A stretch of 64,000 nucleotides of DNA from a virus: IMG/VR virus record IMGVR_UViG_3300020202_000063, positions 1 through 64,000 of that record; one strand, 5' to 3'. A program made the translations under genes and the position numbers. Shown here piece by piece: positions 5,139 to 55,051 of this stretch (position 1 is its first letter; each line of letters begins with the position of its first letter). Under the pieces are notes generated by a model. The model was not told where the DNA came from, searched no databases, and was given only the letters and a program-made list of their open reading frames with translations.

Positions 5139-5145
5139 GTGTAAA
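5139..5145 (+). promoter_or_regulatory. GTGTAAA late-promoter-like element
   Basis: This copy lies 13 bases before the GTG start at 5152. If TGTAAA acts as a -10 box, the transcript would start at the start codon itself. It may be a chance match because the gene is small and of uncertain start. Confidence 0.45.
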
Positions 5146-5151
5146 TATTTC

Positions 5152-5448
5152 GTGCTTCTCGGAATATCGGCAGAATTATCAACCCCTCCAAGTAGTCCAT
5201 CAGTTTTTCGTGATGTTTGCTTGTTCGCTAAGGTTTTTCGTAATTACGACGTTGTGGCTTTCAGCGAAAAAGAAATGATAGATTTATATGTCCGATGGTT
5301 CCGAAAGTACGGTTTATTTGATTATGTTGACGACATTGTGACAAGAATTGAAATCAAAAGGGTAGACGTTGAAATTGAGGGTGGTGGAAAGCTAACTGCC
5401 CATTGTTTACATGATGTTCTAGCTCATATTCCCAAGCCGCCCCGATAA
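5152..5448 (+). CDS. HAD-like C-terminal fragment, hypothetical
   Basis: A 98-residue protein with a GTG start; an in-frame TAA at 5131 rules out a much longer reading. The segment KEMIDLYVRWFRKYGLFDYV resembles the helical part of small phage HAD-fold proteins, but the usual N-terminal DxDG(V/T) motif and the later IDDRA motif are absent. It is therefore either a remnant or a different fold. The stop codon lies inside the loop of the terminator hairpin at 5434-5456. Confidence 0.5.
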   Translation: MLLGISAELSTPPSSPSVFRDVCLFAKVFRNYDVVAFSEKEMIDLYVRWFRKYGLFDYVDDIVTRIEIKRVDVEIEGGGKLTAHCLHDVLAHIPKPPR

Positions 5449-5462
5449 GGCGGCTTTTCTTT
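5434..5462 (+). terminator. Intrinsic terminator
   Basis: A perfect 8-bp stem, AAGCCGCC (5434-5441) with GGCGGCTT (5449-5456), is followed by TTCTTTTATTT. The loop contains the stop codon of the preceding gene. It separates the 0-5.4 kb genes from the neck and tail unit. Confidence 0.85.
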
Positions 5463-5480
5463 TATTTACGCCTCTAAAAA

Positions 5481-5487
5481 GTGTAAT
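5481..5487 (+). promoter_or_regulatory. GTGTAAT late-promoter-like element
   Basis: The element follows the terminator directly and lies 14 bases before the ATG at 5495. TTAAGGG sits between them. With a -10 reading the mRNA would begin one base before the ATG, so it would be leaderless. Confidence 0.65.
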
Positions 5488-5494
5488 TTAAGGG

Positions 5495-5944
5495 ATGGCA
5501 TCCTTACTTTCTACTACTGATAAAGCGGCGCTTGTATCGGCTTACGAAAACCTCGTAGATACATTCAAGCGGCCTATTGTCGTGTACCATGAAGCTGAAA
5601 AGACGGTGGTTATCTCTGACCCCAACTACAATCGTCTAAGGAAATTTAGCCAAAATACTCGTAATCCGGATAATACACCTGTTTCGCGCACCATTAATGC
5701 TCGTATATACTACGCTAGCAAGCAGGGTAGCCCATTTAATACTTTTGGTCAATCCCCACAAAATAAAGCAAAAATAGATGACGGAATGGTCCGTATCAAG
5801 ATTCATGCCGATGATTTTGAGTTTATGTCAAAAGCTAAGAAGATTGAGTTGGATGGAAATCTATTCGACGTTGATTCTGTAGAGCGCCCACATGGACTTT
5901 TCGACACTGAATATTATACATACTGGTTAAAGAGGAGTCAATAA
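5495..5944 (+). CDS. Putative head-tail connector (neck) protein
   Basis: A 149-residue protein with a beta-rich second half (MVRIKIHADDFEFM, then IELDGNLFDVDSVE) resembling small head-closure or stopper proteins. It is the first gene of the neck and tail block, and its stop overlaps the ATG of the next gene (TAATG). No enzyme motif is visible. The role is inferred from size, fold impression and position before the neck and tail-tube genes. Confidence 0.5.
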   Translation: MASLLSTTDKAALVSAYENLVDTFKRPIVVYHEAEKTVVISDPNYNRLRKFSQNTRNPDNTPVSRTINARIYYASKQGSPFNTFGQSPQNKAKIDDGMVRIKIHADDFEFMSKAKKIELDGNLFDVDSVERPHGLFDTEYYTYWLKRSQ

Positions 5945-6585
5945 TGGCTGATTTCAATACTAGAGCACAAATCAACCATCATAACGTAATGTTGGAACTC
6001 GAATCTGCCCATCCCACAATTAAGGCGGCAGCGGAAGTATATGTAAGAAAAGAATATTTCGAACCCGCTGTACGCGCTCTAAGGCAAGATTTTGAATCAC
6101 ATCCGGTTACTGTCGAAATTGATGGTGGTATGGAATTTGGCAATGAAGCGGGAAATCCAAGTAAAACATTATCGGTCGGTGCATCGAGCAAAAATCTTTA
6201 TAGTTTTATTGGTTTTGAAGAAGGAACGCACCCGACTAATGCAATACGTAACCGACTAAGAGAGAGCAGTTCAGCAGGTCCGAAGATGCACGCGCTACCT
6301 GTTAAAAAACGTCAGTTTGTTTACGAATTTGAGATTAGTGGTCCTGATTTGGATGCAATTTATGAAGCCACCCCACTCCCATGGGCACAAGGATTATCTT
6401 GGGCTGAAAAGATTGAAACGGGTATTCCGGGTCTCGCGCGCTTCGTTTCAAAAGATAATCTGGGTCGTTCGGGTGGTGGTTACCAAGCGAAGAATGATGT
6501 TCGCAAAAATGGCCCCAATACTAGCCGCCCAATCAGCTATCTAACAGGTATCGTTCAAAGATTTCTAGATAGATTCACAAGATGA
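5944..6585 (+). CDS. Putative tail-completion / neck protein (HK97 gp10-like)
   Basis: A 213-residue protein with an N-terminal helix, a GFEEGTHPTNAI segment and a C-terminal helix ending RFLDRF. This layout resembles HK97 gp10-type neck proteins that link connector and tail terminator. It overlaps the upstream gene by one base and the downstream gene by four (ATGA). The assignment rests on position and general layout. Confidence 0.45.
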   Translation: MADFNTRAQINHHNVMLELESAHPTIKAAAEVYVRKEYFEPAVRALRQDFESHPVTVEIDGGMEFGNEAGNPSKTLSVGASSKNLYSFIGFEEGTHPTNAIRNRLRESSSAGPKMHALPVKKRQFVYEFEISGPDLDAIYEATPLPWAQGLSWAEKIETGIPGLARFVSKDNLGRSGGGYQAKNDVRKNGPNTSRPISYLTGIVQRFLDRFTR

Positions 6586-7418
6586 ACACCCAATTTTTAC
6601 ATAAAGCAGAGTTAGGTTTTCTGTTGTGGGCAGATAATTTCCTATGCAATCGTGCGCAGGCTTATACAACGCATACTTCTCGATTATATTATACCCCTGA
6701 TGACAGACTACATGAATCGAAGATAGCATATGCATCACCATTTAAGGGGTGGGTTTATGATAGCGGTGTACAAGGTGCCTATATACCAAGCAGTATAAGT
6801 GGTTCATTAGGAACACTTACGGAAGGACAAAGCGGGCTACAATTCGATTATGAGAATGGGCGCGTTATCCTAAATTCTGGTGTAGGTACGAATCTGAACC
6901 TGACGGGTACATACAGCTTCAAGGATTTCAATATTTATCCAACAAATGAAGGTTTGGAGCAGATTATTGTTGAAAATAAATATTATTTGAATTCACGTTT
7001 TGACCGTACTCAGACGGGTATTCCTCCGTATGATTTCGTGACCCCCGCGATTTTTGTAAACTTTTCTACAGTTTCTAACAAACCTTTCGCCTTCGGTGGT
7101 TTACAGCTTTCACAACCAACCGCTTCAATGGTAGTTTTGGCCGAAGAACCATGGCAATTACAGGGAGTGATAAATACCTTTGTTGATGCTGCCGAAAAGT
7201 ATTTTCCGTTGGTGGAGGCGTCAATCGACCCCATTAACGAATCTGGCGCCTTACGTAGCGGTTATAACTACACAAATATTGCTGCATCCCGACCCGCTAG
7301 CGATTTAGTGCGTATTGACTCTGTACGCGGCTCGCGACTCACCGATTCTATCAAAACAAATGAGGGTTTATATGTCGGTTTGATTGATTTCCAACTTTCT
7401 TACGCACGAACGACTTAA
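6582..7418 (+). CDS. Virion structural protein, possible tail terminator
   Basis: A 278-residue beta-rich protein with many Thr, Ser, Tyr and Gly residues and no catalytic motif. It lies between the neck genes and the first tail-tube-like gene, the usual place of a tail terminator, although it is longer than most. The start overlaps the previous stop by four bases. I do not recognise a named family. Confidence 0.45.
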   Translation: MNTQFLHKAELGFLLWADNFLCNRAQAYTTHTSRLYYTPDDRLHESKIAYASPFKGWVYDSGVQGAYIPSSISGSLGTLTEGQSGLQFDYENGRVILNSGVGTNLNLTGTYSFKDFNIYPTNEGLEQIIVENKYYLNSRFDRTQTGIPPYDFVTPAIFVNFSTVSNKPFAFGGLQLSQPTASMVVLAEEPWQLQGVINTFVDAAEKYFPLVEASIDPINESGALRSGYNYTNIAASRPASDLVRIDSVRGSRLTDSIKTNEGLYVGLIDFQLSYARTT

Positions 7419-7424
7419 AATTTG

Positions 7425-7431
7425 GTGTAAC
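7425..7431 (+). promoter_or_regulatory. GTGTAAC late-promoter-like element
   Basis: Lies in the 38-base gap, 32 bases before the ATG at 7457. AAGGA follows about 10 bases before the start codon, which would give a short leader with a Shine-Dalgarno sequence. Confidence 0.6.
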
Positions 7432-7456
7432 TAAATCTGCAAAATAAGGACCGGTT

Positions 7457-8410
7457 ATGGCACTATATCAGGGAGTAGAACTTAAAATTTCATCTGGCTT
7501 CGCGGGAACCACAATGATGACGGTCGAACGTCTTCAAGGGGTAAACTTTGGTTTTGATTTCCAGCGAGCGGATGTTCGTCAATTAAATCGCTTCCGTCCA
7601 GACATCAACAGACCGACGATGAATTACACGCCGGTCACTCTGTCATTCGACTATATTAAGGGCGACTCCATGGTTGAAAGCGTCTTAGGCTTGACCAACC
7701 CCACGGGTGTTATTTGTGGTATTACAAATTCTAAAGCATTGGCCGGGTATGGTATGCGCAATTTTGAAATTTGGCAATCACCACTGGAATCGAACAATTA
7801 CGTTGGTCAATTCAACCTTTCAAGCGGCGTTTTAAATAGTTATAGCTTGGCCGCAAGCGTTGGTGATTTTGCAAAAACATCCCTTTCTTTCCAAAACTTT
7901 GATATTGGTTGGGTTGCTAACTCTACAGCAAAGGGCAATGCCCCAACATATAACGGTATACCCGTGCGCTCCCAAGATATCCAAATTACCGGTATTAATT
8001 TCAGTGGTTTTGGCGTCAGCGGTTTCGCTCTACAATCTTTCAATCTTGGTATCAACATTAGTCGAAGCGAAACAATGCAAATTGGCTCGAAGTTCCCAAC
8101 AGAGCGCCAAATTGTCGATGCCACAGCTACATTGCAAGTTCAGGGCTTTATTGAAGGCGGCAACAGCACATTGACTGGTTTGGGTTCTTATGATTGTGGT
8201 GCGGCCACCAACGGTTCTATATATATTACTTTATTACCTTCATGCGGTACGAATCCAGCGATGACTTATCGGGCCATTAATCCATATTTTCAAGGTATGA
8301 GTCAGAATAATACCGTAGGCAATTTTGCATCGGTTGACCTTTCATTCATAATTCCGTTGCCAATTTCGGCGCATGAGACCGGTTCTGCATCGAATCTCAT
8401 TATCTCATAA
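7457..8410 (+). CDS. Tail-tube-like protein, paralogue 1
   Basis: A 317-residue beta-sandwich-type protein. It shares a block order with the genes at 8481 and 48727: a VNFGFDF strand near residue 27, then VTLSFDYIKGDSM, then SLAASVGDFAKTSLSFQN in the middle, then FALQSFNLGINISRS. That pattern suggests duplicated tail-tube-type domains. It has its own promoter-like element and a good ribosome site, as expected of an abundant virion protein. Which paralogue is the major tube protein cannot be told. Confidence 0.6.
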   Translation: MALYQGVELKISSGFAGTTMMTVERLQGVNFGFDFQRADVRQLNRFRPDINRPTMNYTPVTLSFDYIKGDSMVESVLGLTNPTGVICGITNSKALAGYGMRNFEIWQSPLESNNYVGQFNLSSGVLNSYSLAASVGDFAKTSLSFQNFDIGWVANSTAKGNAPTYNGIPVRSQDIQITGINFSGFGVSGFALQSFNLGINISRSETMQIGSKFPTERQIVDATATLQVQGFIEGGNSTLTGLGSYDCGAATNGSIYITLLPSCGTNPAMTYRAINPYFQGMSQNNTVGNFASVDLSFIIPLPISAHETGSASNLIIS

Positions 8411-8435
8411 TTCGTCAAAATTAGTATAATCCAGC

Positions 8436-8442
8436 GTGTAAT
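8436..8442 (+). promoter_or_regulatory. GTGTAAT late-promoter-like element
   Basis: Placed 45 bases before the ATG at 8481 in a 70-base gap. A TATAAT-like string also occurs at 8425-8430, so a host-type -10 cannot be excluded here. Confidence 0.6.
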
Positions 8443-8480
8443 TAGATATACCAACTATCATACTTTAACCGAACATTCTC

Positions 8481-9605: not shown

Positions 9606-9632
9606 TATTTGATTCAGTTCAAATTAGTTTTC

Positions 9633-9666
9633 ACAAACGGGGTCAAAAGCTCCGTTTGTTTGCTTT
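9633..9666 (+). terminator. Intrinsic terminator
   Basis: ACAAACGG (9633-9640) pairs with CCGTTTGT (9652-9659), followed by TTGCTTTTAT. It ends the tail-tube-like unit and is followed by a new GTGTAAT element. Confidence 0.8.
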
Positions 9667-9708
9667 TATACTCTTAGACTAATTTCTTTGCAGATTGCAC
9701 CTTTATTA

Positions 9709-9715
9709 GTGTAAT
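9709..9715 (+). promoter_or_regulatory. GTGTAAT late-promoter-like element
   Basis: First element after the terminator, 33 bases before the ATG at 9742; AAGG lies 5 bases before the start codon. Confidence 0.65.
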
Positions 9716-9741
9716 ATTGCGTAGGAAAGGTAATCTAAGGT

Positions 9742-10041
9742 ATGGAAAATTTGGTTGGGGCAAGCGCCCCGGATATCCTGCGCTTTCAAGTAAAGCGAGG
9801 CATTACAGCTACATATAAAGAAGCCCTCAATATTCTTGAGGAACTTGAGCGTGAACACGCCGCCGCATTAGCGCGGTTACAAGCGGCATTACCAGAATCA
9901 GATAGGAAGCTTGTTGCAGTAGCGGATTATTGGCATAGCGACAAATATGATTCGTTGCGTCGTCGTATTCTTACAACAGGAAACAATGCATATAGGTCAG
10001 TAGAAGAACAAATGACCAACATGATTATCATGTTTAAATAA
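9742..10041 (+). CDS. Small helical protein before the tail chaperones
   Basis: A 99-residue, mostly helical protein with a heptad-like central stretch (ILEELEREHAAALARLQAAL). No known motif is visible. It starts the unit that leads to the tape measure, so it may assist tail assembly. It is 23 bases upstream of the next gene. Confidence 0.45.
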   Translation: MENLVGASAPDILRFQVKRGITATYKEALNILEELEREHAAALARLQAALPESDRKLVAVADYWHSDKYDSLRRRILTTGNNAYRSVEEQMTNMIIMFK

Positions 10042-10064
10042 AACAATTTAAGGAATGGCAAAAT

Positions 10065-11845: not shown

Positions 11846-11863
11846 CAAAATACCCCATTGTAT

Positions 11864-11870
11864 GTGTAAT
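11864..11870 (+). promoter_or_regulatory. GTGTAAT late-promoter-like element
   Basis: Lies 37 bases before the tape measure ATG. An ATACCC/GGGTAT inverted repeat flanks it at about 11850-11885. Confidence 0.65.
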
Positions 11871-11900
11871 TTATAGAGGGTATAAGGTAATATATTAGGT

Positions 11901-14900
11901 ATGGCACGTCCTCCAGCAGTTGTATTAGGGGTAGCGGGTGATTTCAGCGCGTTTAATCGCGGCTTATCGCTGGCGGTTGCTAATGCCCAAAGGACGTTAA
12001 ATAACGCCCGTTTTTCAAATCCACTAGGCACAATAAGCCGAGACGTTCGGGATTTTGAGCGTTCATTGCAGGCCGCATCCCAACGCGTTATTACATTTAG
12101 CGCCTCCTTGGGCACACTGGCACTTACAGCGTCAATTTTAAAATCTATTGCTAAGGATACAATAGCAGTCGAGCAAGCTTTTGTTGATATTAATTCGGTT
12201 TTCCAACTTAGCGCTCAAAACCTGCAAAAATTCAGCCGCGACCTTTTTGATGTAGCGCGCCAAACCAGTCAGTCCTTTGAAATTGCAGCGGAAGCGGCCA
12301 AAGAATTTTCACGTCAAGGTCTTAATTCTGAGGAAACTCTAAAACGCGTAAGAGACGCGATGATTCTTACCCGCGCCTCGGGACTAGATATAACCAAGTC
12401 AGTTGAGACACTGACAGCTACAATTAATAGCTTTAATAGCGCGAGCGTCGATTCTACCCGAATCATTAATAAACTCGTTGCTGTTGACCAAAGCTTTGCT
12501 GTATCGGCGCGCGACTTGGCTGAAGCACTATCTCGTGTAGGTTCTACCGCTCAAGATGCCGGTGTAAGTTTTGACCAACTTATTGGATTGGTTACCGCTG
12601 CACAACAAACGACCGCTCGTGGTGGCTCTGTTATTGGTAACTCATTTAAGACAATTTTTACTCGTATTGGCCGCGCAGACACACTACAACAACTAGAAGA
12701 TTTAAATATTGAAGTAAAAGATTTTCAAGGTAATGCGTTAGACGCAGTTACAGTCCTAAAGAATCTCGCTCGCGGTTTTGACGGTTTATCTGAATCCGCC
12801 AAAGCACAAGCCGCCGAACTCGTCGGTGGCGTTTTCCAAATTAACGTTCTTCGTTCTACCTTACGCGACTTGGGTAAGGAACAGGGAATTTTCGAACAGG
12901 CCACGAAGCGTTCGGGCGAAGCATTTGATGAGGCTATCAAGCGTAATGAAGCGCTAAATCAAAGTCTTGCGTCATTACTTACCCAGACGCAACTTACCGC
13001 AAAACAAGTTGGTGCGGCCATTGGTGAAATTACATTCTCGGATAAATTGAAGGAAGCGTTACAGGTTATTAATAATAACCCATTTGTTGACGCCTTCAAA
13101 AACATCAATACTTCCGATATTGGTTTGAAATATGGCGATGATATTGGCGCTAATATTGCCGAAGGTATATTAAGCGGTATTGGTAACATTCTTACTGGCC
13201 CCGCGCTTGTCTATATTTCTAAAATTTTTAGTGGTATTGCCAAGACGACCTTCAAAATATTCGGTGGAGATTTGGCTCAATTGGCTGGTATTAATCAGGA
13301 ATCTAACAAACAGATTTCGCTTGCCACCAAACTTAACGAATTATATCAGGCTGGTAATACAGCACTTCAAGGTCAACTTGGTACAATGCGTCAAATGACG
13401 AGTGCGATGGGCGCGCGTGCTGGCGCAACACCATTATCTACTCCCTTCACCCCAACTTTTGGTGCCGCTATTTATGCAAGTACAAAATTTGCTAGCACCT
13501 CACCTTTAGCACCACGTGGATTAATACCCGGTATCATTTCCCAATCGCGGCGTGAGGATTTTGATACAGCTTTCGTTAAGAGTGTACAACGAGAAATCTC
13601 CGAATCTGGTCGCAATCTTAGTGAGGCGATGAGTGCTACTTTCTCTGAATTTAGCCGACTTGGTATAACAGTAGCAGATTTAGAGCGTGTGATGCGAAAC
13701 AATGTTCGTTCATTGGATGCATATGAAACACAACTTAGAACACAACAAGAAGTTGCAAAACGCGGACGGCTTTTACAGACAGCGTTCAATAGTAATCGCC
13801 CCCTCTCTAAAGGTGGTCGGCTGTTTTCAGCCGTTACACAACAAGCAGAATTGGCCGCAGAGGAAAGATTTCGTGGTTTAATAGGTAAAGGTCCAGATGA
13901 TGAACTATCAGACCGTGAACGTCAGGTACTTGCTAGATTCCAGCGGCGTGCCGCATATCAAGCTGGCGAGTCTGTAACAACTCAACGCGAAAGAGAGTTG
14001 GCGGTACAACGGAGCCAACGAGTTAGAAATGGTATTTTTGGCGCCACTTTTGCATTACCTTTCGTTAGTGGCTTTATTCCAACTGGTGTCGGTGGAACGT
14101 CCAGTGGGCAAGCTCTTGGCGCACTAAGTGGTGGCTTACAAGGTGCTGCCATTGGTGGTTCGATTTCTCCTACTCCGCTTGGTTTGATTGGTGGTTCCAT
14201 TGCTGGTATTACTGCTGGATTTATCAGTAAACTAAATAAATCTTTTGAAGAACTGGCAGCGCAAATCGAAGAGGCCAATGCGCGCAATGCTGAATTAATA
14301 AATCAAGCAACAGAGTTTGGTCGAATTAGTGAAGCTCTGCGTACCGCTGGAAAAACTGGTGCGAGTGACCGTGATATAAATACTCTTATCGGAAGACAAC
14401 GTGATGTTTTTGCGGGTATTACAGACCCACAGACGCGCCGTGCACTTCTGGCTGCACAGGGAGATGCAACCGAAGAGGAAAGAGTTGTATCAGATTTACT
14501 TAGAAAAGGGGCATTAGAGGGAAGTTCGCGTGACGTAGCTTCTGCATTTAAACGTCTATCTGATAGTCGTAGTATTGGAAATTCATTTTTTGGTGGTAAC
14601 TCAGAGTTCTCCTCTTTATCGACCGCAATTCAAGTCGCCATTGCTCGGCGCTCCACCAACAATCCCGGTTTCGCTTCTCAAGTGGGAGCGCAATTTGGCT
14701 CAAATCCTTATCAAGCGCTACGTTCCATAGGTGTCAATCAACAAGAATTTCCGGAATTATTTAAACTGAGTGCAGAGCAATTGCGGACATTAGCCGACGC
14801 CGGTAAATATGCCGCAAATAATATTAAAGATTTGGGTGATGAAGCGAGTCAGGCTAAATTAAAACAGGCCACTTTTACGCGTCAAATCGCCACAATTATC

Positions 14901-17900
14901 CAGCGTTTAAATTACGAAGGTAGATTAGCTCAAAGTGAAATTGCAACAAGTGGCGCTATCAATCAAACGGTTGGCGACGCCGCCCTAAATCTAGGTTTTG
15001 GTACACCGGAACGTATTGCCCGCGACCGTGGAATTTTACAATTGCAGAGTGTTCGTTCATCCGGAGATGCGCAATTCCAAGGTGCCCTTGGTACAGGACG
15101 TGGTACAATTCTGGATAGCGCCCTACGCAATAATGCTACAAACGCACAATTCTTAACCGCTGTATTATCTGCAAATTCGCAAGAGCAAATAGCAGCTTTG
15201 GAAAACATCGCTGAAAACAGCGACCTTAAGCGAACGATTCGTGAAGTTGTATTCGAACTTCAATCTATCAAAGATAATACTCGTCAAGAAATTGAAAAGA
15301 CTTCGGTTTTGATAGAAGTAAGTAAGACTCAAGCGGCGTTAGAAGCACGCGCGCGTAATTTGGAGTCCGGTCGCTTTAATGAACAAACTCTTAATCGTTT
15401 GTTTGAGGCTCGATTGGGTGCACGGTCACCAACTGGCAGAGTACCGGGATTATCACGTGTCAATTCGTTAATTGAACAGGGTGATATTCTCGATTCCCTT
15501 GGAGTTGGTAAAACTGAAAATAGTCAGCGTATTCGTGAAACATTGAGTATAATTTCGACAACCGGTATGTTAGCCGAGATTATTTCTGAAATTACCGGCG
15601 AAGTAGTCAAAGCTGACCCTGCAAGTATTAAAGATGCGGCGCGTCGTGGTTTAGGTTCCCTTCGTGGGGGCACCGCAGAAGACGCACAGAGAGCAGATAT
15701 ATTTAATCGCGTTCTACAACAACTTGATAGGAATGCCATCAATCCAGATGCGGCCATTGGTAGATTGGGTACATTCTCCAAGGGGGCATCATTAGGTGGG
15801 GCTGGACCTCTAAATAATGCAGGTATATCCAATCTCTATGGTAGTGCTGTCGCAAGCCAATATACTTTTGCACAGGCGCGAGCAATTCAAGCTAGAGAAA
15901 GTGCACAAAATACCGCTAATTCTAAAATTGCAACATTACAACAAGAATACAGTCTGGCTCCATTTACTGCATTACAACAGGTCCGGAGTGGATTGCCGGG
16001 AAATGAAAAACAATTTGATTCCAACATAACTGGTACTTTAGATAATTTACTTGGTAGACTTATACCAGACCTTAATATTCCGGGTGACGAAGGTGGTTTT
16101 ACGGCCCATCCAGCACGACGCCAGATTGCAAAAATGTTTGCCGGTTCATTGAAAACTGGAACTGTAAATGATTTTATAAAATCTGCAACTTCAAGCGATG
16201 GTGAAATTTTCAACATAGCTCGTAAAGCTGGCGCAGACCCACAAGTATTTGCTCAAGCATTACAAGCCTTGATATTGTCCGTCGCTCAACAGTTTGCCGG
16301 TCCACTGTTGGAAAAGATGCTTACGGATATCCAGCAGAACATTGATAAATTAAAAGTACCTCCCCCAACCAGCAGTACATCTGGTGTTCCAGCCGGTCTT
16401 GCGCGTGGAACCCCTACTCTTTCTGGTATTGGAAAGAATTTAAATCTTTTTGATAGGCCGTTTACACAATATTTTGGTATTAATCCGTCTCCCGTGCCAA
16501 CGGCTCAAGACGCACCCCAAAGCGGAATTGTAGATGCTATTCAGAAAGCGCAACGACAACAGAGAGATGCATCGGGCCGATTTAGAGATGCCGCTTTAAC
16601 TGGTGATATTGTTGGTGAATTATCTGCCGCAAGAGAATTAAAGCTAATAAACAGTCAAATTGTTTACTTGTCTGGACTTCTTACGAATAATTCCGCGAAG
16701 CGTCTTTTCATAGATAAACAATCCCGAGATGTCTGGGACGATATTCGTCAGATATATGAAGATATATCAAAAGGCGCATTAATTTCTGGTGGCACAATCG
16801 AATCCAAATTTCTAGAATTTGGACAGAAAGAAGGTCTTTCGGGTGACCCGATTTCATCCCTCAAAGCTGGTTTTGCCGGTCCGTTCGCTGGTATGAAACA
16901 AGATTTATTCGACTTATCTACAGTAGGTAAATCCGTAGCTGATAGCCTTTCCAACAATTTCGCGGCAGCATTTGGCGATTTTGCGACTGGTACAGAAAAG
17001 GGTAAGGACGCATTTAGAAATTTTGTGGTCAGTGTATTACAGGATTCTTCACGTGCGTTTGCTAGTAAGGCCGTTCAAGGATTGCTTGGAATGGTGTTAG
17101 GACCGGGCGGAAGTTTGGCTAATGCGTTTGGTTTGCCACAGGGCGCGGCGACGGGTGGTGTTATGAACAAAGCACCTGCGTTGCTTACCGCTGGTGAAGT
17201 TGTTATTCCTCGCGAAAGTGCAATGTCTATTGGATATGATACACTGAGCAAAATGAATCGTGGTATCATGGGCTATGCAAATGGCGGGGAAGTTGTCACT
17301 GGTGGTTCCGGCGTAGTTGATGATGTATTTAGAATGCTTCGTCCCGGCGACTTCGTAATGCGTAAATCAGCCGTACAGAAGTACGGTTCAGAGAATCTTC
17401 TAGAAATGTCTCGTAACTCTCGAATCCAAAAGAGATTTTTCGGTGGCCCCATGCTTATGGGTGCACTACTCGGTGGTGGTCTTGGGTATGCGACGGGTGG
17501 TAAGAAGGGCGCTTTAATTGGTGCATTGGGTGGCGCGCTTGCTGGTGGCTTATATCACAATTACGCTTCATCCGGTAGTGCTTTCAGTACCGTAACTCCA
17601 CCGGGTACTGGTGCATCAATTTACAGCGGTCCATTTGCTAAAGCCGCATCTTCCGGTGGTATGAATAGTGTATTGAAGATGTTTGCTGCATCAGCCGCGT
17701 TAGGTGGTATCGGTGCACTTATCTCACCTAAACCACAAGACGATTCCAGTGTTCTTCCAAAACTCACATATAGTCAATCAACACAATTGCGTGAATCGGC
17801 TGAAGCTCAACAAGCTGCGTTATTATCAAATGGTAGCGGTTTCCTTGTACCAGTTCAAACAAAAGATGGTTTCATTGTCCACGAACGTGTAAGAGTTGCG

Positions 17901-18335
17901 GCGACCCGTCGTTTTGAAAATGGCGGTGTAGTTCCAGAAATTTCCCGATATAATTCTGGCGGTATTGTAGGTGGCGGCATTTCAGTTGCGCGACTAAATT
18001 CTGGTGGCGTTGTACCTTCTCCATCTATCGGTACTGCTTCCATTAATGTTCGCGGATACAACGAAGGCGGTGTTGTGGCTGTTCCAACTGTCGTTGGTTC
18101 GCCAATAGTAAGTGCTGGTCGTAGTGGCGGCGGCGGTACGATAATGGGTGACATCAATATTAATGTCACTGTTCAGAAGGACGGCACTGTATCTAATCAA
18201 GGAATGTCAGAAGATGGTGAGGGTAATCAGTTGGCTCGCAACCTTCGCGCGGCTGTTATTGAAGTTGTACAAGACCAAATGCGTTGGGGCGGTTCACTGT
18301 ACAAATCATATGGCGCCAGCGACATGTCTAAATAA
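11901..18335 (+). CDS. Tail tape measure protein
   Basis: A 2144-residue protein and the longest gene in the window. The N-terminal third has the TP901/PhageMin_Tail-type helical core, with segments such as QSFEIAAEAAKEFSRQG and LARGFDGLSESAKAQAAELV. Hydrophobic glycine-rich segments occur near residues 710-780 and 1855-1885 (GALLGGGLGYATGG), suited to membrane insertion. The C-terminal region has repeated xGG(V/I)V motifs. At about 1.5 angstrom per residue, a rule for long-tailed phages, it predicts a tail near 320 nm. No lysozyme or peptidase domain was seen. It works inside the tail tube and sets tail length. Confidence 0.92.
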   Translation: MARPPAVVLGVAGDFSAFNRGLSLAVANAQRTLNNARFSNPLGTISRDVRDFERSLQAASQRVITFSASLGTLALTASILKSIAKDTIAVEQAFVDINSVFQLSAQNLQKFSRDLFDVARQTSQSFEIAAEAAKEFSRQGLNSEETLKRVRDAMILTRASGLDITKSVETLTATINSFNSASVDSTRIINKLVAVDQSFAVSARDLAEALSRVGSTAQDAGVSFDQLIGLVTAAQQTTARGGSVIGNSFKTIFTRIGRADTLQQLEDLNIEVKDFQGNALDAVTVLKNLARGFDGLSESAKAQAAELVGGVFQINVLRSTLRDLGKEQGIFEQATKRSGEAFDEAIKRNEALNQSLASLLTQTQLTAKQVGAAIGEITFSDKLKEALQVINNNPFVDAFKNINTSDIGLKYGDDIGANIAEGILSGIGNILTGPALVYISKIFSGIAKTTFKIFGGDLAQLAGINQESNKQISLATKLNELYQAGNTALQGQLGTMRQMTSAMGARAGATPLSTPFTPTFGAAIYASTKFASTSPLAPRGLIPGIISQSRREDFDTAFVKSVQREISESGRNLSEAMSATFSEFSRLGITVADLERVMRNNVRSLDAYETQLRTQQEVAKRGRLLQTAFNSNRPLSKGGRLFSAVTQQAELAAEERFRGLIGKGPDDELSDRERQVLARFQRRAAYQAGESVTTQRERELAVQRSQRVRNGIFGATFALPFVSGFIPTGVGGTSSGQALGALSGGLQGAAIGGSISPTPLGLIGGSIAGITAGFISKLNKSFEELAAQIEEANARNAELINQATEFGRISEALRTAGKTGASDRDINTLIGRQRDVFAGITDPQTRRALLAAQGDATEEERVVSDLLRKGALEGSSRDVASAFKRLSDSRSIGNSFFGGNSEFSSLSTAIQVAIARRSTNNPGFASQVGAQFGSNPYQALRSIGVNQQEFPELFKLSAEQLRTLADAGKYAANNIKDLGDEASQAKLKQATFTRQIATIIQRLNYEGRLAQSEIATSGAINQTVGDAALNLGFGTPERIARDRGILQLQSVRSSGDAQFQGALGTGRGTILDSALRNNATNAQFLTAVLSANSQEQIAALENIAENSDLKRTIREVVFELQSIKDNTRQEIEKTSVLIEVSKTQAALEARARNLESGRFNEQTLNRLFEARLGARSPTGRVPGLSRVNSLIEQGDILDSLGVGKTENSQRIRETLSIISTTGMLAEIISEITGEVVKADPASIKDAARRGLGSLRGGTAEDAQRADIFNRVLQQLDRNAINPDAAIGRLGTFSKGASLGGAGPLNNAGISNLYGSAVASQYTFAQARAIQARESAQNTANSKIATLQQEYSLAPFTALQQVRSGLPGNEKQFDSNITGTLDNLLGRLIPDLNIPGDEGGFTAHPARRQIAKMFAGSLKTGTVNDFIKSATSSDGEIFNIARKAGADPQVFAQALQALILSVAQQFAGPLLEKMLTDIQQNIDKLKVPPPTSSTSGVPAGLARGTPTLSGIGKNLNLFDRPFTQYFGINPSPVPTAQDAPQSGIVDAIQKAQRQQRDASGRFRDAALTGDIVGELSAARELKLINSQIVYLSGLLTNNSAKRLFIDKQSRDVWDDIRQIYEDISKGALISGGTIESKFLEFGQKEGLSGDPISSLKAGFAGPFAGMKQDLFDLSTVGKSVADSLSNNFAAAFGDFATGTEKGKDAFRNFVVSVLQDSSRAFASKAVQGLLGMVLGPGGSLANAFGLPQGAATGGVMNKAPALLTAGEVVIPRESAMSIGYDTLSKMNRGIMGYANGGEVVTGGSGVVDDVFRMLRPGDFVMRKSAVQKYGSENLLEMSRNSRIQKRFFGGPMLMGALLGGGLGYATGGKKGALIGALGGALAGGLYHNYASSGSAFSTVTPPGTGASIYSGPFAKAASSGGMNSVLKMFAASAALGGIGALISPKPQDDSSVLPKLTYSQSTQLRESAEAQQAALLSNGSGFLVPVQTKDGFIVHERVRVAATRRFENGGVVPEISRYNSGGIVGGGISVARLNSGGVVPSPSIGTASINVRGYNEGGVVAVPTVVGSPIVSAGRSGGGGTIMGDININVTVQKDGTVSNQGMSEDGEGNQLARNLRAAVIEVVQDQMRWGGSLYKSYGASDMSK

Positions 18336-18373
18336 AGTTGCAAAAGACACGATTTTAAGCATATTATCAAGCA

Positions 18374-19129: not shown

Positions 19130-19131
19130 CA

Positions 19132-20776: not shown

Positions 20777-20783
20777 GTGTAAT
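20777..20783 (+). promoter_or_regulatory. GTGTAAT late-promoter-like element within an inverted repeat
   Basis: Lies 41 bases before the ATG at 20818. The 8-base string CCGTGTAA (20775-20782) recurs inverted as TTACACGG (20809-20816), so a GTGTAAA also faces back on the minus strand. Confidence 0.6.
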
Positions 20784-28600: not shown

Positions 28601-28607
28601 GTGTAAT
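28601..28607 (+). promoter_or_regulatory. GTGTAAT late-promoter-like element
   Basis: Lies 35 bases before the ATG at 28636; AAAGG sits about 8 bases before the start. It would drive the unit that includes the sigma-like factor, so the factor may reinforce its own synthesis. Confidence 0.6.
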
Positions 28608-28635: not shown

Positions 28636-29040
28636 ATGATTAAATATTGCACTCAATGCGGTCACAAACACGAATTCACGTTTAATGCACCCGCCTTTTG
28701 CGAGAGTTGTGGTAACGCCTTTGCTGGTGTTACCCCCGCCACTCGTACCGTTGCAAGTACCCCCGCCAGACCATCAGTTGCACGCCAAATCCAAGAGGAT
28801 ACAGATGATACACCTTTGCCCGATTTATCAAAATTGGACGTAACGGTTGAGATTCATAAAGCACCCCGCATGACGTTAGAGCCAAAGGGTGATTCCATTA
28901 CGGTTGTTGGTGGCGCTGGTATAGGTGGAGAACCACGCCCACGAGGGCAGAAATTCAACCGAGAAGATGTCCAAAGAGAAATCGAACAACAATTCAGAAG
29001 AGAGCGGCAAGAACTCAAAGAAGAGGTCACACCGAGTTAA
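28636..29040 (+). CDS. Zinc-ribbon protein
   Basis: A 134-residue protein with an N-terminal zinc ribbon formed by CTQCGHKH and CESCGNAF, an Ala/Thr/Pro linker, and a charged C-terminal helix (EQQFRRERQELKEE). It may bind RNA polymerase or nucleic acid. Its 3' end overlaps the sigma-like gene in another frame, so the two are co-transcribed and probably translationally linked. Confidence 0.6.
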   Translation: MIKYCTQCGHKHEFTFNAPAFCESCGNAFAGVTPATRTVASTPARPSVARQIQEDTDDTPLPDLSKLDVTVEIHKAPRMTLEPKGDSITVVGGAGIGGEPRPRGQKFNREDVQREIEQQFRRERQELKEEVTPS

Positions 29041-29674
29041 GATAGAGACTTTAATCCCCGTCATACAGCGCGAGATTCATAAAAGGCGCAAGAAGTGGAC
29101 GCTTGCATCCGTCTCATTTGAAGACGTTTCTCAAATCGTCCTTATCAGAATTGTAAGTAAATATCACACCTTCGATTCATCAAAGGGTGAGTTTTTACAT
29201 TGGGTTAATCGTGTAATCAGTCATACGATTATAAATATTCTTAGAGATAACTATCTAAAGTATAGCCGCCCTTGTATTTTAGGTTGTATTCATAATACTG
29301 GTGACGACAACTGTTCTCTCACCAAGAATGGCAAGCAATGCGCTCAATGTCCTCTCTATCGCGACTGGGAGAGGTTGAAGAAAGAACAGTTTAATATCAA
29401 TCAACCACTTTCGCTTGAAAATCATATTCAGGAAGTGAATGATGAATTTTATGATATCGAACACGCGAAAGAGAAGTTGAATGTCGAGATGAAGCGTCGC
29501 CTTAAACCATCAGAATGGCGCATTTACGAAATGATGTTTGTCAATCGTAAGGATGATGATATCAAAGAAGATACAATTAAGAGTTACGGTATAAGCTATC
29601 CGCATTTTACCAAACTCCGTACCCTGTTTATCGAAACAGCTAAGAAAATTATCGAAGAGGAATCTTTAGCATGA
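28925..29674 (+). CDS. Sigma70-family-like transcription factor, candidate late sigma
   Basis: The longest reading starts at GTG 28925; ATG 28967 (residue 15) is an equally possible start. Residues 63-107 look like sigma region 2: FEDVSQIVLIRIV, then FDSSKGEFLHWVNRVISHTI. Residues 114-146 hold a cysteine-rich insert (CILGC, NCS, QCAQCPLY), probably binding zinc. Residues 190-245 look like a region 4 helix-turn-helix, RLKPSEWRIYEMMF and then ISYPHFTKLRTLF. It would direct host RNA polymerase to phage promoters. The repeated GTGTAAT element without a -35 box is the obvious target, as with T4 gp55. It overlaps both neighbours. Confidence 0.7.
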   Translation: MENHAHEGRNSTEKMSKEKSNNNSEESGKNSKKRSHRVKIETLIPVIQREIHKRRKKWTLASVSFEDVSQIVLIRIVSKYHTFDSSKGEFLHWVNRVISHTIINILRDNYLKYSRPCILGCIHNTGDDNCSLTKNGKQCAQCPLYRDWERLKKEQFNINQPLSLENHIQEVNDEFYDIEHAKEKLNVEMKRRLKPSEWRIYEMMFVNRKDDDIKEDTIKSYGISYPHFTKLRTLFIETAKKIIEEESLA

Positions 29675-33691: not shown

Positions 33692-33698
33692 GTGTAAT
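33692..33698 (+). promoter_or_regulatory. GTGTAAT late-promoter-like element
   Basis: Lies 35 bases before the ATG at 33727, the commonest spacing seen, but only 11 before the upstream ATG at 33703. Read as a -10 element, it would start RNA inside the 33703 codon and so favours the later start. Confidence 0.6.
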
Positions 33699-36247: not shown

Positions 36248-36254
36248 GTGTAAA
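36248..36254 (+). promoter_or_regulatory. GTGTAAA late-promoter-like element
   Basis: Lies 42 bases before the ATG at 36290, just after the portal stop codon. Confidence 0.6.
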
Positions 36255-36784: not shown

Positions 36785-38415
36785 TGGACGGTTTACCGGA
36801 TATCTTCAAAGATAAGATAGAGATTTTTTCCACTATTAAGGTTATTGAGGAAACTCAGTCGCCTTTTAAGAAGGAAGAAATCACTGCTTCGTTAGATAAA
36901 TTAAAGGATATTTTTCCTAAATGGGTAGATGTAGATTCTACTCCCGATATTCTATTTCTTGCCTCTAATCTAGTTGTGTGCGATGTAATGAATGGCAATC
37001 ATGTTTGTTTGCCCCTTTCCGTCGCCAAAGAAGTATACAAAGGCTTTATTAATAAGCTTGTTGATATTGAGCATGATAGAAAGAGAATTGTTGGTTTTAT
37101 TATAAATTCTGCTTTCACCAAAGTCGACACAGACGAAATTATAGAAGAGAAGGATTTGGATAGCTACGACGGTTTGGTCCAGATATCTTATGCTGCGGCC
37201 ATCTGGCGTTTAGCCGCACCAAAATTATCCGCATTTTTACTCAAGGCGTCCAATCCAGAATCTAAAGAATACAATCAGGTAAGTTCAAGTTTTGAACTCG
37301 CAGTTAGTGATTGGGATATTGCAGTGGGTTCCCCTCATGTAAAGAATGCGCGTATCATCAAAAGGGGTGACAAAGATTTTGATTTGTATGCTGCATATCT
37401 CCCCAATAACAAAGGCTCTGGGAAGACTAAACAGGGTGACTTTGTATATCGCGTGATTAAGGGGGAAGTTCTTCCTACGGGCGCGGGCTTGGTCGCCAAT
37501 CCAGCAAGTCAAGTCGAAGGTATCTACACCTTAGTTGGAGAAGAAGATATAGTCGAAAAGGAAGAGGGTAAGGAAAAAGCTGATATAAGTGTAGTAGAGA
37601 CTCCAAAAGTCGAGTCTACAGAGGTAACTACGGCAAATATTACGCTTCCTACCAATGAAATTTCTCAACAAAATATCGAAAATACTAAAATCGAGGGAAA
37701 ACTAAGTGTAAACTCTAATACAACCCACTCTATGAAAATTACCAAAGTAGAAGATATCGTCGCATCTCTTTTTAAAGAGGAAACAACTGCAAGCGCCGTT
37801 ACTGCTTTCATTGCTGCCGAGATTGCTAAGTCCAGTGAACAATATGTCAAGGATTTACAGGCGCAGAAAGACCTAAGTAAGAAGCTTGAGGAAGCAAAGG
37901 CTTCTGCGGAGACAAAGGCACAGGAACTTCAGACGAAGGTAACCGAACTTGCGAACCGCCTTAATGAAATTGAGGCTCAAAAGGCCGCTCAACAGGCCGA
38001 AGCAGATTTCAATCAACGTATGAATGCGTTTGAAGAAGAATATGACCTTGATGAAGAAGACCGCAAGTCTCTCACGGTTGATATTAAGGCATGCAAGACG
38101 AAGGAAGAATTCGAAACTTTCGTGGCTAAGATTAAGCCGCTCATGAAGGAAAAGAGCAAGACTTTCAAAAAGGAAAAAGCTTCCAAGCTTGAAGAGGCTG
38201 TTAAGGCCGCAAAAGCAACTGGCGTTTCTATTGATACCGTTAAGGTTGACCCAAAGACATTGGATTTCGTTGAAATCGTTGCTTCGGTAAAAGAGACACC
38301 AAAACAGGAAAATGTTCCAAACACACCTCCCCCAGCAGGAGAAAAGAGTCTTGTAGAGCGTATGCAGGCTTTCAAAGACCAGATTAGCTTTAACGGCAAA
38401 GTCGTTAAACAGTAA
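36784..38415 (+). CDS. Prohead protease-scaffold fusion
   Basis: A 543-residue protein. Residues 1-245 look like a herpesvirus-fold prohead protease, with INKLVDIEHDRKRIVGFI (candidate catalytic H97) and the serine in NQVSSSFELAVSDWD (168-169). A Glu/Thr-rich linker spans 255-315. From about residue 317 begins a coiled-coil scaffold with LQAQKDLSKKLEEAKASAET and long Lys/Glu helices to the end. Lambda C/Nu3 is a known case of protease and scaffold from nested frames. Here an internal promoter-like element and ATG lie exactly at the boundary. Confidence 0.8.
   Translation: MDGLPDIFKDKIEIFSTIKVIEETQSPFKKEEITASLDKLKDIFPKWVDVDSTPDILFLASNLVVCDVMNGNHVCLPLSVAKEVYKGFINKLVDIEHDRKRIVGFIINSAFTKVDTDEIIEEKDLDSYDGLVQISYAAAIWRLAAPKLSAFLLKASNPESKEYNQVSSSFELAVSDWDIAVGSPHVKNARIIKRGDKDFDLYAAYLPNNKGSGKTKQGDFVYRVIKGEVLPTGAGLVANPASQVEGIYTLVGEEDIVEKEEGKEKADISVVETPKVESTEVTTANITLPTNEISQQNIENTKIEGKLSVNSNTTHSMKITKVEDIVASLFKEETTASAVTAFIAAEIAKSSEQYVKDLQAQKDLSKKLEEAKASAETKAQELQTKVTELANRLNEIEAQKAAQQAEADFNQRMNAFEEEYDLDEEDRKSLTVDIKACKTKEEFETFVAKIKPLMKEKSKTFKKEKASKLEEAVKAAKATGVSIDTVKVDPKTLDFVEIVASVKETPKQENVPNTPPPAGEKSLVERMQAFKDQISFNGKVVKQ
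37706..37712 (+). promoter_or_regulatory. Internal GTGTAAA late-promoter-like element
   Basis: Lies inside the protease-scaffold gene, 26 bases before the in-frame ATG at 37732 where the scaffold part begins. A chance match cannot be excluded, but the position is apt. Confidence 0.5.
37732..38415 (+). CDS. Nested scaffold protein (internal start)
   Basis: Translation from the in-frame ATG (residue 317 of the fusion) would give a 227-residue scaffold beginning MKITKVEDIVASLFKEE and containing the whole coiled-coil region. A GTGTAAA element 26 bases upstream supports separate expression. No clear Shine-Dalgarno sequence precedes it, as in many genes of this phage. Separate scaffold would supply the excess over protease needed in capsid assembly. 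Confidence 0.45.
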   Translation: MKITKVEDIVASLFKEETTASAVTAFIAAEIAKSSEQYVKDLQAQKDLSKKLEEAKASAETKAQELQTKVTELANRLNEIEAQKAAQQAEADFNQRMNAFEEEYDLDEEDRKSLTVDIKACKTKEEFETFVAKIKPLMKEKSKTFKKEKASKLEEAVKAAKATGVSIDTVKVDPKTLDFVEIVASVKETPKQENVPNTPPPAGEKSLVERMQAFKDQISFNGKVVKQ

Positions 38416-38444
38416 CCCCTATAAACTTTAATTTATAAAATAAC

Positions 38445-40773: not shown

Positions 40774-40780
40774 GTGTAAT
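40774..40780 (+). promoter_or_regulatory. GTGTAAT late-promoter-like element
   Basis: Lies 14 bases before the ATG at 40788 and overlaps an earlier ATG at 40779. Read as a -10 element it predicts RNA starting at about 40787, i.e. a leaderless transcript from the second ATG. Confidence 0.6.
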
Positions 40781-41344: not shown

Positions 41345-41351
41345 GTGTAAC
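41345..41351 (+). promoter_or_regulatory. GTGTAAC late-promoter-like element
   Basis: Lies 35 bases before the ATG at 41380, directly after the previous stop codon. Confidence 0.6.
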
Positions 41352-41817: not shown

Positions 41818-41829
41818 TTAGGATAACAT

Positions 41830-42168: not shown

Positions 42169-42171
42169 TCC

Positions 42172-42594: not shown

Positions 42595-42599
42595 AATTT

Positions 42600-43721: not shown

Positions 43722-43727
43722 CATAAT

Positions 43728-44222: not shown

Positions 44223-44226
44223 TCGA

Positions 44227-46670: not shown

Positions 46671-46677
46671 ATATTTA

Positions 46678-46684
46678 GTGTAAT
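46678..46684 (+). promoter_or_regulatory. GTGTAAT late-promoter-like element
   Basis: Lies 17 bases before the ATG at 46695, which leaves only about four bases of leader if it acts as a -10 element. Confidence 0.6.
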
Positions 46685-46694
46685 CTAACGTACA

Positions 46695-48717: not shown

Positions 48718-48726
48718 CCTCGTATC

Positions 48727-49947: not shown

Positions 49948-49951
49948 TTGA

Positions 49952-52900: not shown

Positions 52901-53779
52901 TGTGCCACTCGCTTGGCTGTTGAAAATGCCGAGGGAGGCAACCGCTCCTTGAAGCGCGTTGGTGGAGGTGGAGACGAAGCCGTTTGCTGTTGCTGCGCCG
53001 CCTGCATAGAATGCCCCAGCAATGCCAACGCCGCCCGACACAACCAATGCGCCTGTAGTGGTGGAGGTGCTGGCGGTAGTCGGCGCAATCGTCACTGTCC
53101 CTGCTGCAAAGTGGGTGTAAGCTGTGGCCCCCGTACCTACTCCGATGCGCAGACCGGGAGAAGCCGGAGCATAGATGAACGTTTGATTATTCCCGAGCCA
53201 AGCCAACGAACCCGAGTACGCCGTACCAGACATCCCAAAAAAACAACTGTCTGTTCCGGCTGTGTTGGTAATAGAAAGGGATTGTGTGGAGGCATAGCCG
53301 GAGCCAGATAGGGAAAGCGTCGTTCCGGCTTGTGTTATAGTTACGGCCCCCGCAAACGTCGCCGCCAAAGCTGGCGTAATCGTCAAGGCCGCCGTGGCTG
53401 AGGCTCCAACTGTCAGTTGAAGCGAGGTGGAATTGCTAAAGCGTAGGCCACCGACTTCAGTTCCAGCCTGATAGCAGATGACGCCCTGTGTGGTGGAGGC
53501 CGTACTATTGAGGAGGAGAAGTGCGTTGGTTGCAGCATTACCACCAATAGTAACCTGAGTGCCTCCAAATGTCGCCGCTAAAGTAGAAGATGCAAACGTT
53601 AATGCGGCGGTTCCAAAAGTTGATGACAATGAAGACGTGGTATTATAAATGGCAAGATTATTCCCACTAAACATACCAATACGCCACGCAGAAGAACCTT
53701 CCGCGATGCCAAACCTTATATGTGCCAGAGCATCAAGGTCGATTACTCTCTGAACCCGAATATCACGTAAAATTGCCAT
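49952..53779 (-). CDS. Large repetitive fibre protein
   Basis: A 1275-residue protein with its own GTGTAAT element. The unit ASTSTTTGALVVSGGVGIAG recurs at least five times, and a longer cassette containing RGIYVANQG and AQSGAATTNIGLRN occurs three times. These are typical of phage tail or head fibre shafts. The C-terminus (YTGTGGHTLTLPSTPITGQT) resembles a knob found at the ends of phage fibres. Its first 60 codons are AT-rich like the phage, while most of the gene is GC-richer, which suggests exchange of fibre parts. It lies opposite to all other structural genes. Confidence 0.7.
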   Translation of the reverse strand: MAILRDIRVQRVIDLDALAHIRFGIAEGSSAWRIGMFSGNNLAIYNTTSSLSSTFGTAALTFASSTLAATFGGTQVTIGGNAATNALLLLNSTASTTQGVICYQAGTEVGGLRFSNSTSLQLTVGASATAALTITPALAATFAGAVTITQAGTTLSLSGSGYASTQSLSITNTAGTDSCFFGMSGTAYSGSLAWLGNNQTFIYAPASPGLRIGVGTGATAYTHFAAGTVTIAPTTASTSTTTGALVVSGGVGIAGAFYAGGAATANGFVSTSTNALQGAVASLGIFNSQASGTVTLQANGGSFRVSRFTDNTTLFSVTDGAVTTSVTTVASTVASTSTTTGALVVSGGAGIAGNLFVHSTTGLAVGNGAVSATSWLTSNANQTILWGNQYNDGTARASASSRYAGKLEYTNTTGIWVIGGTSTTQTAGSAIANDANTVTINPVTTTSTSTTTGALVVSGGVGISGALYVGGNQTITGAASASLSFAKTNATAQTFTLTGGDNFTLGNITSGTTPITVTGSNDNVTLNGDLTVSGGDISLVNSNTKIIRGDATGRVEILSVAALADFNIRSPDLDYNSSLGLFQDEGGTRTYGFYFKVASTTSEFSFVRRTNNSDFTVMTVANTANDVTFTGDITVSGGNMGVGAASVASQGIYIGSTGLTGTLQVGVASQPTFTSGATTGLIGFYSNIRTVASVFTSVEGTGLYADSPTLGAGSIVTSMRGIYVANQGGDTDIAHAIGIEIAAQSGAATTNIGLRNAGTTQLTGNVGIGGVSGTDRAVNITSSALSSTTQYGIVSLPTFNSSALTSGYSGYFGVITSAAFTMIDGFGIAIAPPTIGSGSVTNMRGLYIANQGVSGKTTTAIGVDIEAQSGAATTNVGLRNQGTTILSRTNISGTTVRTDSLLTISGNAASHLTGSTQYGFLSEPTFGSAVTTAGYAAYIASVTAASAFTMTTSVAVLVGSPTVGSGSSITTQRGVHVINQGASGIANAYGIDIDAQSGASTTNVGLRNSSITLLNTTGTTVGNGGTYTLQVQYSGTTHFTAGSDNTNVYLQSWSSKPLHINNQGNNVVFFTNSAGSVLTVASTTASTSSTTGALVVSGGVGIAGALNAGTTSVLREHALTGGDLGSGTTILQLKNYNGTTRFNFRGDGVLVASAGVASTSNTTGTIIVTGGVGISGTLAVGGGKIQNTSTQSTTYTLVTTDYFIAYTGTGGHTLTLPSTPITGQTYVIKNKGSGSAITISGNGTTIWTTSGVASFTMAVGDFCTLIYDGATWNKV

Positions 53780-53804
53780 ATGTTATGCCGTTCCGTACCC
53801 ATAA

Positions 53805-53811
53805 ATTACAC
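53805..53811 (-). promoter_or_regulatory. GTGTAAT late-promoter-like element, minus strand
   Basis: Reads GTGTAATTTATGGG on the minus strand, 32 bases before the fibre ATG at 53779. The same element and spacing as on the plus strand argue for function. Confidence 0.7.
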
Positions 53812-53838
53812 CTTGGGCCGCAACGATTATAACATATT

Positions 53839-54255
53839 CTAACTCTCAAAATACTGTTTGCGCCAATATTCTTTAAGTTCTGGAAGTTCCTCTTCGTCAA
53901 GTTCTGGGGGTGAGTATTTAAAACCCAACCCATCCATCATCATTTTGGCAAATTTACCCGCATCTTGTTCAGCCATCACTACTTCCTTCATATAAGCAGG
54001 ATGGTAGCGTTTATAGCCACTCATAAACCGCGCAAACCTTTTATCTCGATTTTGGTGCCAGTGGCGCAATTCATGAAATAAGACAGCGCATCCTAGAACA
54101 GTACCCTTTAGACATCGTTGTATTGTGATTATATTCGTCTCTGGGTCAAAGTGCCCATTTACATTATTGGCTAAACGTCTATGTCTAACTTTTATACCTT
54201 TCGACCTTATAAAATCGAGTGTTACCTTATATTCCTTAGTCTTGCGCAGGCTCAT
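53839..54255 (-). CDS. Zincin-type metallopeptidase-like protein
   Basis: A 138-residue protein with HELRHWHQ at 61-68, a clear HExxH zinc-binding motif on a helix, after a short strand region (IITIQRCL). The third ligand could be a glutamate in the MAEQDAGKFA segment at about 96-105. The size fits minimal phage zincins such as SprT- or ImmA-like folds. It overlaps phoH by four bases, so the two are co-transcribed. Targets are unknown. Confidence 0.6.
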   Translation of the reverse strand: MSLRKTKEYKVTLDFIRSKGIKVRHRRLANNVNGHFDPETNIITIQRCLKGTVLGCAVLFHELRHWHQNRDKRFARFMSGYKRYHPAYMKEVVMAEQDAGKFAKMMMDGLGFKYSPPELDEEELPELKEYWRKQYFES

Positions 54256-55016
54256 CGTGGCATTGTTTCAATGCGCTCGACAATGTAGCCAAGCAAACCA
54301 CTGCGAACAATATCTTCCTTAGTGAAGGCGAAGCAATGAATCCCCTTTTCCTTGCTTGATTCGTCGTTGAACAAATCAAACATAGGTTGGAAGCCGCTCT
54401 TACCATTGATATCTGATTGCATTGGGTCGCCCAAGATGATAAATTTGGAGAATTGTCCAATACGCGTGAGAGCGGTCGTTAATTCTTTTCGGTCAAGATT
54501 TTGCGCTTCATCTACGATGACGCATTTCGCATTGATACTTGCGCCACGCAAATAGTTGATTGGAATACCCTTAAATCGTTCTTCCTTTGCAAGATGGTCG
54601 ATATCAGCTTTAGGTAGCAACTCTTCCAACTTGTCATAAAGTGGCATGAGGAAGGGTGCCAATTTTTCATTTTCAGAACCCGGTAGGGTGCCGAAAGATT
54701 TAGAGGCGCTTTCCGCAATAGAACGAATATAAACTAGGTCTGAGACACGTCTTGTATTCAGTAAGTGCAAAGCGCAATATACGGCAAGAAATGTTTTGCT
54801 GGTTCCAGCCGGACCAGAAACGAAAATAAGATTTGTTTTCTTATCTAATACTAACTCGATGAATTTCTTTTGTTTTTCGGTTAGGTCATTACGCTCTCGT
54901 ATCTGTAACTGGAAATCAATTTTATCGCGTTGGTATATGTAGGGCGATTTATCTTTTGGCTTTTCATTTTTTTCTGTTTCCTTTAGTTGTTTTTCCAGTT
55001 TCTTTCGTTTTGACAT
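54252..55016 (-). CDS. phoH: PhoH-like ATPase
   Basis: The start at 55016 is chosen because earlier in-frame codons run through a terminator hairpin and into the preceding gene, and a GTGTAAA element lies 35 bases before it. The 254-residue protein has Walker A GPAGTSKT at 68-75, Walker B KCVIVDEAQNL at about 164-174, and the conserved ILGDPMQSD. PhoH-type proteins are RNA-helicase-like ATPases common in marine and environmental phages; their role in infection is unsettled. Confidence 0.88.
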   Translation of the reverse strand: MSKRKKLEKQLKETEKNEKPKDKSPYIYQRDKIDFQLQIRERNDLTEKQKKFIELVLDKKTNLIFVSGPAGTSKTFLAVYCALHLLNTRRVSDLVYIRSIAESASKSFGTLPGSENEKLAPFLMPLYDKLEELLPKADIDHLAKEERFKGIPINYLRGASINAKCVIVDEAQNLDRKELTTALTRIGQFSKFIILGDPMQSDINGKSGFQPMFDLFNDESSKEKGIHCFAFTKEDIVRSGLLGYIVERIETMPR

Positions 55017-55044
55017 AAAATGAGTTTGGTTTGACTCGACATAG

Positions 55045-55051
55045 TTTACAC
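55045..55051 (-). promoter_or_regulatory. GTGTAAA late-promoter-like element, minus strand
   Basis: Lies 35 bases before the phoH ATG on the minus strand and just after the upstream terminator. The arrangement of terminator followed by element is the same as at 5481 and 9709. Confidence 0.65.

Follow-up and report, generated by a model that had tools for sequence, protein, structure and literature searches.

What marks the late genes of a large uncultured virus for transcription, and what reads the mark? The question is raised by the first 64 kb of the 98.6-kb virus record IMGVR_UViG_3300020202_000063 (record G000), the stretch that we call the window, where the short element GTGTAAH (H being A, C, or T) stands before one gene after another. 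The original prediction took this element for a phage-specific late promoter. We now consider it highly probable that GTGTAAH is a single-element, −10-type late promoter, that a sigma factor encoded by the phage (28967–29674, plus strand) guides the host core RNA polymerase (RNAP) to it, and that transcription starts 14 nt after its first G.

An exact scan located all 13 plus-strand and 2 minus-strand elements precisely where they had been predicted. On the plus strand, GTGTAAT occupies 5481–5487, 8436–8442, 9709–9715, 11864–11870, 20777–20783, 28601–28607, 33692–33698, 40774–40780, and 46678–46684, GTGTAAA 5139–5145 and 36248–36254, and GTGTAAC 7425–7431 and 41345–41351. On the minus strand, GTGTAAT at 53805–53811 precedes a gene for a 1275-residue protein, and GTGTAAA at 55045–55051 precedes a PhoH-like gene (ATG 55016). 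Between positions 1 and 56028, 15 sense copies fall in 1,115 bp of intergenic DNA vs 10 in 54,913 bp of genes, a density difference of about 74-fold; antisense copies number 2 in gaps and 8 in coding DNA. Sense copies inside genes (10) are thus not in excess over antisense ones (8), and by these computational counts both classes lie at background. The concentration in gaps, in the correct orientation, which had been singled out as the true signal, is borne out, and in an unbiased k-mer count of the sense gaps GTGTAA ranks first among 6-mers (15 vs 1.0 expected, p = 3.7e-13). The raw total of 35 copies is not significant, being reached in 8 of 100 shuffles (27.4 ± 5.0), and was dropped as evidence. 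Two intragenic copies had been reported, at 37706 and 47896; both are real, but the number was wrong, as there are ten in sense within the same interval. The two best matches of a terminator scan, at 5434–5456 and 9633–9659 (plus strand), lie upstream of the elements at 5481 and 9709 as had been described, and a hairpin near 55072 on the minus strand is visible by eye. The bases before the element are A/T-rich and no −35 box recurs, also in agreement with the earlier description.

The original prediction called for a look at related phages, and the element is present there. Searches with the terminase and portal proteins gave about 110 viral loci at 33–60% protein identity, in which genes were predicted and gaps counted. 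Their gaps, 43.3 kb in all, hold 152 sense and 9 antisense copies of GTGTAA; sense coding DNA, at 1,306 kb, holds 176. After removal of redundancy, in which gaps sharing any 14-mer were dropped, GTGTA is the top 5-mer (128 gaps vs 18.9 expected) and GTGTAA is found in 79 gaps vs 8.0 expected. The family-wide core is GTGTA, with A/T-rich bases before it and A, T, or C after it; the flanks vary by clade, yielding the versions TAGTGTA[T/C], GGTGTATA, GTGTAA[C/T], and AAGTGTAAT. No recurrent −35 box or TG extension is observed at the element sites of the relatives. When checked on T4 and phiEco32, simple k-mer ranking failed to recover the few promoters of these phages, which makes the method conservative for phages with few sites. 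GTGTA has no sense excess in either genome (0 sense and 1 antisense copies in T4, 2 and 2 in phiEco32), and no description of GTGTAA or GTGTA late promoters was found in the literature searched.

The placement of the element points to late genes. In the five records read whole (G000, G012, G009, G004, and G005), sense copies concentrate in the structural half, with few in the remaining parts, and a sixth, G001, has a like trend with few sites. Among orthologues at roughly 30–47% identity, the element is found upstream of the portal gene in 19 of 25 cases, of the head-region gene of the 36784 type in 15 of 22, and of the 48283-type gene in 11 of 19, while GTGTA precedes the 5495-type gene in 7 of 12 and the tape measure gene in 3 of 5. 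It is directly before none of the 20 orthologues of the capsid-region gene 39118 and none of the 22 of the sigma gene. In the window itself, the portal gene has no element directly ahead, and the copy at 33692 precedes a small gene inserted before it. Genes within operons seldom carry the element. Of 334 genes that overlap or directly adjoin their upstream neighbor, 3 have GTGTA within 25 nt upstream, vs 50 of 113 genes with gaps of 12–25 nt.

The position of the element relative to the transcription start and the start codon is also informative. Sites that lie 22 nt or more from the ATG number 42 after removal of redundancy, and 24 of them have a pyrimidine–purine (YR) step 14 nt after the first G (p = 4e-7); apart from this, only +7, which adjoins the element itself, is a strong offset. 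The YR step peaks at 14 in the window as well (9 of 15 sites). In relatives, the ATG most often follows the first G by 14 nt (53 genes) or 15 (30), otherwise by 16 (11), 17 (9), or 18 (12), and hardly ever by less. A Shine-Dalgarno-like site is present in 4 of 126 genes near their element vs 17 of 36 farther away, and in 80 of 328 overlapping or abutting genes. The floor in distance at the inferred start, together with the missing ribosome site, indicates leaderless mRNAs.

Within the window, the near geometry is found at five sites once two start codons are corrected. The elements at 5139 and 5481 lie 13 nt ahead of a GTG start (5152) and 14 nt ahead of an ATG (5495), respectively, and that at 46678 lies 17 nt from its ATG. 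The start codon after 40774 is more likely 40788, at 14 nt, and that after 33692 more likely 33709, at 17 nt; 5481 and 40774 have the leaderless geometry. The other ten sites would give leaders of about 18–31 nt; their distances to the ATG include 32 nt (7425), 33 (9709), 35 (41345), 41 (20777), 42 (36248), and 45 (8436). As judged from sequence, many late mRNAs are probably leaderless. That this holds across an entire family of large, uncultured phages, in which a four-cysteine sigma factor goes with a GTGTA placed so that many virion mRNAs start at the A of the AUG, leaderless messages being the rule in several clades, we regard as slightly favored.

The same spacing could be read differently, with the element as a translation signal that substitutes for the Shine-Dalgarno site about 9 nt before the start codon. 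The sharply fixed distance to the ATG in relatives, in genes devoid of a Shine-Dalgarno site, is what such a signal would produce. Overlapping and abutting genes also need translation, yet nearly always lack the element (3 of 334), and it is rare in early regions, which are served by identical ribosomes. Moreover, copies also exist 22–60 nt from the start codon, at genes enriched in Shine-Dalgarno sites, and most window copies lie 32–45 nt away. A promoter is preferred because overlapping and early genes almost always lack the element and because the position of the YR step is constant relative to the element and not to the ATG; a role in translation is very improbable.

A candidate reader of the promoter is encoded in the window. 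A search match to Sigma70 region 2 at 29090–29251 lies within an open reading frame for a protein of 235 residues (28967–29674, plus strand), for which ATG 28967 is the likely start. The protein matches Pfam PF04542 (E = 4.5e-8) with region 2 at residues 42–95 and thus has the region 2 of the ECF/sigma-70 superfamily; of the 19 family records, 17 contain a Sigma70_r2 match over the Pfam threshold. Orthologues lie in the same late cassette of the related loci that extend to that position, and their alignment runs from region 2 through four invariant cysteines to a C-terminal helical domain. The AlphaFold model has a mean predicted local distance difference test score of 83 and a predicted template modeling (TM) score of 0.48, and sigma factors make up nearly all of its Foldseek matches in the PDB and viral libraries. 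For region 4, no Pfam Sigma70_r4_2 match exceeds the cut-off; the model has C-terminal helices and aligns in Foldseek with sigma factors over nearly its full length. Small conserved early proteins, tried as alternative sigma candidates, turned out to be a lysozyme and proteins of no assigned function.

Two further observations concern this gene. A gene for a small zinc-ribbon-like protein (28636–29040) overlaps its start and shares the late element with it. Additional Sigma70 region 2 matches occur in other reading frames, at 65353 in G004, 109546 and 116063 in G007, 51119 in G009, and 109524 in G011; the one at 116063 is over the cut-off and the rest are weak, and a second sigma factor may exist in some members of the family.

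Other readers were considered. The element might be a site for a phage activator of the MotA kind or for an undetected phage RNAP, as such systems exist in other phages and most genes here are unannotated. However, an inferred start at about +14 gives the spacing of a −10 element, and a usual activator site would lie farther off. Ten records were searched for multisubunit RNAP domains and none was detected, while the bacterial controls matched; a search for a single-subunit RNAP also found nothing, a weaker result for which there was no positive control. With a phage sigma gene at hand, this explanation is extremely unlikely. Since that gene is present and no multisubunit RNAP domain was found, host core RNAP with the phage sigma factor is the simplest reader.

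Alternatively, the element could be a variant −10 box used by the sigma factor of the host, given that TGTAAT departs from TATAAT at one position and that the sites are A/T-rich. The changed base, however, is the A at −11, the most critical one by established knowledge of sigma-70, and a recurrent −35 box or TG extension is absent. The early region lacks the element and carries ordinary TATA-type boxes, and the phage sigma factor is conserved together with the element. We find recognition by the host sigma factor very unlikely.

The late-promoter interpretation of the original prediction thus draws support, at the sequence level, from gap enrichment, the relatives, placement in the structural region, and a phage sigma factor in the same cassette. 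The sigma gene, the family-wide core (GTGTA in place of GTGTAAT), and the leaderless geometry go beyond that prediction. In the mechanism that we propose, a phage sigma-70-family protein, a product of the late cassette, would direct host core RNAP to GTGTA, and transcription would start 14 nt after the first G. Where the element lies 13–18 nt before the ATG, the mRNA would have no leader or almost none; a Shine-Dalgarno site is more frequent in genes with longer leaders. The element at 28601 heads the transcription unit that holds the sigma gene, which would create a positive feedback.

Several points weigh against this interpretation. The link between sigma factor and element is inferred from their association. 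Two groups of relatives (L003/L058 and L038–L051) have the sigma factor with little or no enrichment of the element, and some late gaps of the window lack it, e.g. 415–491, 18336–18373, and 38416–38444. The Foldseek matches of the sigma model have E values above 0.001 and low TM-scores, which we attribute to flexible domain packing in the model. Finally, kinship among the related phages remains after de-duplication, so that the p-values are overstated.

Late transcription driven by a single element has precedents. T4 gp55 is a phage sigma-70-family protein that serves a single −10-type late element without a −35 box, and in this the GTGTA family resembles T4. The T4 late element TATAAATA differs, however, and its 13 copies in the window are scattered over both strands and not gathered before genes. 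A T4-type late sigma factor was rejected, as phrog_234 (gp55) was not found in ten records and the window sigma factor gives no alignment to gp55. The nearest isolate protein is SigF of cyanophage S-TIM5, with 39% identity over 55 residues of region 2, a match that is not significant (E = 0.3).

The closest known system is phiEco32, in which host core RNAP and the phage sigma factor gp36 use the single-element promoter tAATGTAtA, with starts 6–8 bp downstream (PMC8948821; see also PMC4331800 on gp36 and its promoters). The logic is similar, as the GTGTA family also has a single element without a −35 box, and tAATGTAtA is one base off TAGTGTATA, a form assembled here from clade-enriched words. 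Comparison of gp36 with the window sigma factor by hhalign covers 15 columns at a probability of 1%, and no homology is detectable beyond the sigma fold. Whereas gp36 lacks region 4 (PMC8948821, PMC4331800), the window protein has a four-cysteine module and a helical domain at its C terminus. phiEco32 infects Escherichia coli and has been cultured; the GTGTA family has long tape measure and tail fiber J genes, no cultured relative was found, and the probable leaderless geometry is a feature of this family. By analogy, the GTGTA system would work like that of gp36, and membership in the gp36 family is not supported. Salmonella phage 7-11 likewise steers late transcription with a phage sigma factor, gp47, and host core RNAP; its promoter GTAAtg-16-aCTA has two parts (PMC8948821), in contrast to the single part that recurs in the GTGTA family.

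Family scans identify genes for a tail tape measure, tail fiber J, large terminase, and PhoH in the window, and rIIA and rIIB genes outside it on the same record. The tape measure gene (11901–18335) follows the element at 11864. A crAss-like phage, which the genome size had suggested, was dropped in view of the long tape measure, the tail fiber J, and the T4-type terminase. Among the isolate phages of the collection, the portal has no match and the terminase has matches at about 21–24% identity only. The tail fiber J query recovered no relatives, and scans of bacterial and archaeal genomes for a host assignment found no relative. A gene for a LAGLIDADG and AP2-like homing endonuclease lies at 80880–81848 of the record (1880–2848 of L002), on the strand opposite to its neighbors.

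Signals of another kind are also observed. Just past the window, the early region on the minus strand (64572–74645 of the record, 4572–14645 of L001) carries about 10 copies of a second repeated element, (A)CCC[T/C]ATTGTA. It often stands some 20 nt ahead of a TATA-type −10 box and is probably part of an early promoter or an operator. One early-type box, CCCCATTGTA, at 11853–11862 directly adjoins the element at 11864, upstream of the tape measure gene, and the pair may serve for dual early and late control. In the gaps of record G001 (L008–L015), no 6-mer is more enriched than TTGACA, which suggests ordinary sigma-70 early promoters; several YopX-like paralogs matching 58569–58928 of the window are spread across the same record.

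These observations describe a large family of uncultured aquatic bacterial viruses in which GTGTA, a short start signal, marks the late, virion-building genes and, to judge from the sequences, is very probably recognized by a sigma factor of the virus's own. The family is diverse, and no cultured member was found in this analysis. Knowledge of the late-promoter code and of the sigma gene that goes with it allows operons and correct start codons to be predicted from the sequence itself. Should many of these mRNAs indeed be leaderless, it would become of interest how ribosomes are loaded onto the abundant virion messages of such phages, and the family would offer a compact promoter–sigma pair amenable to study in vitro.
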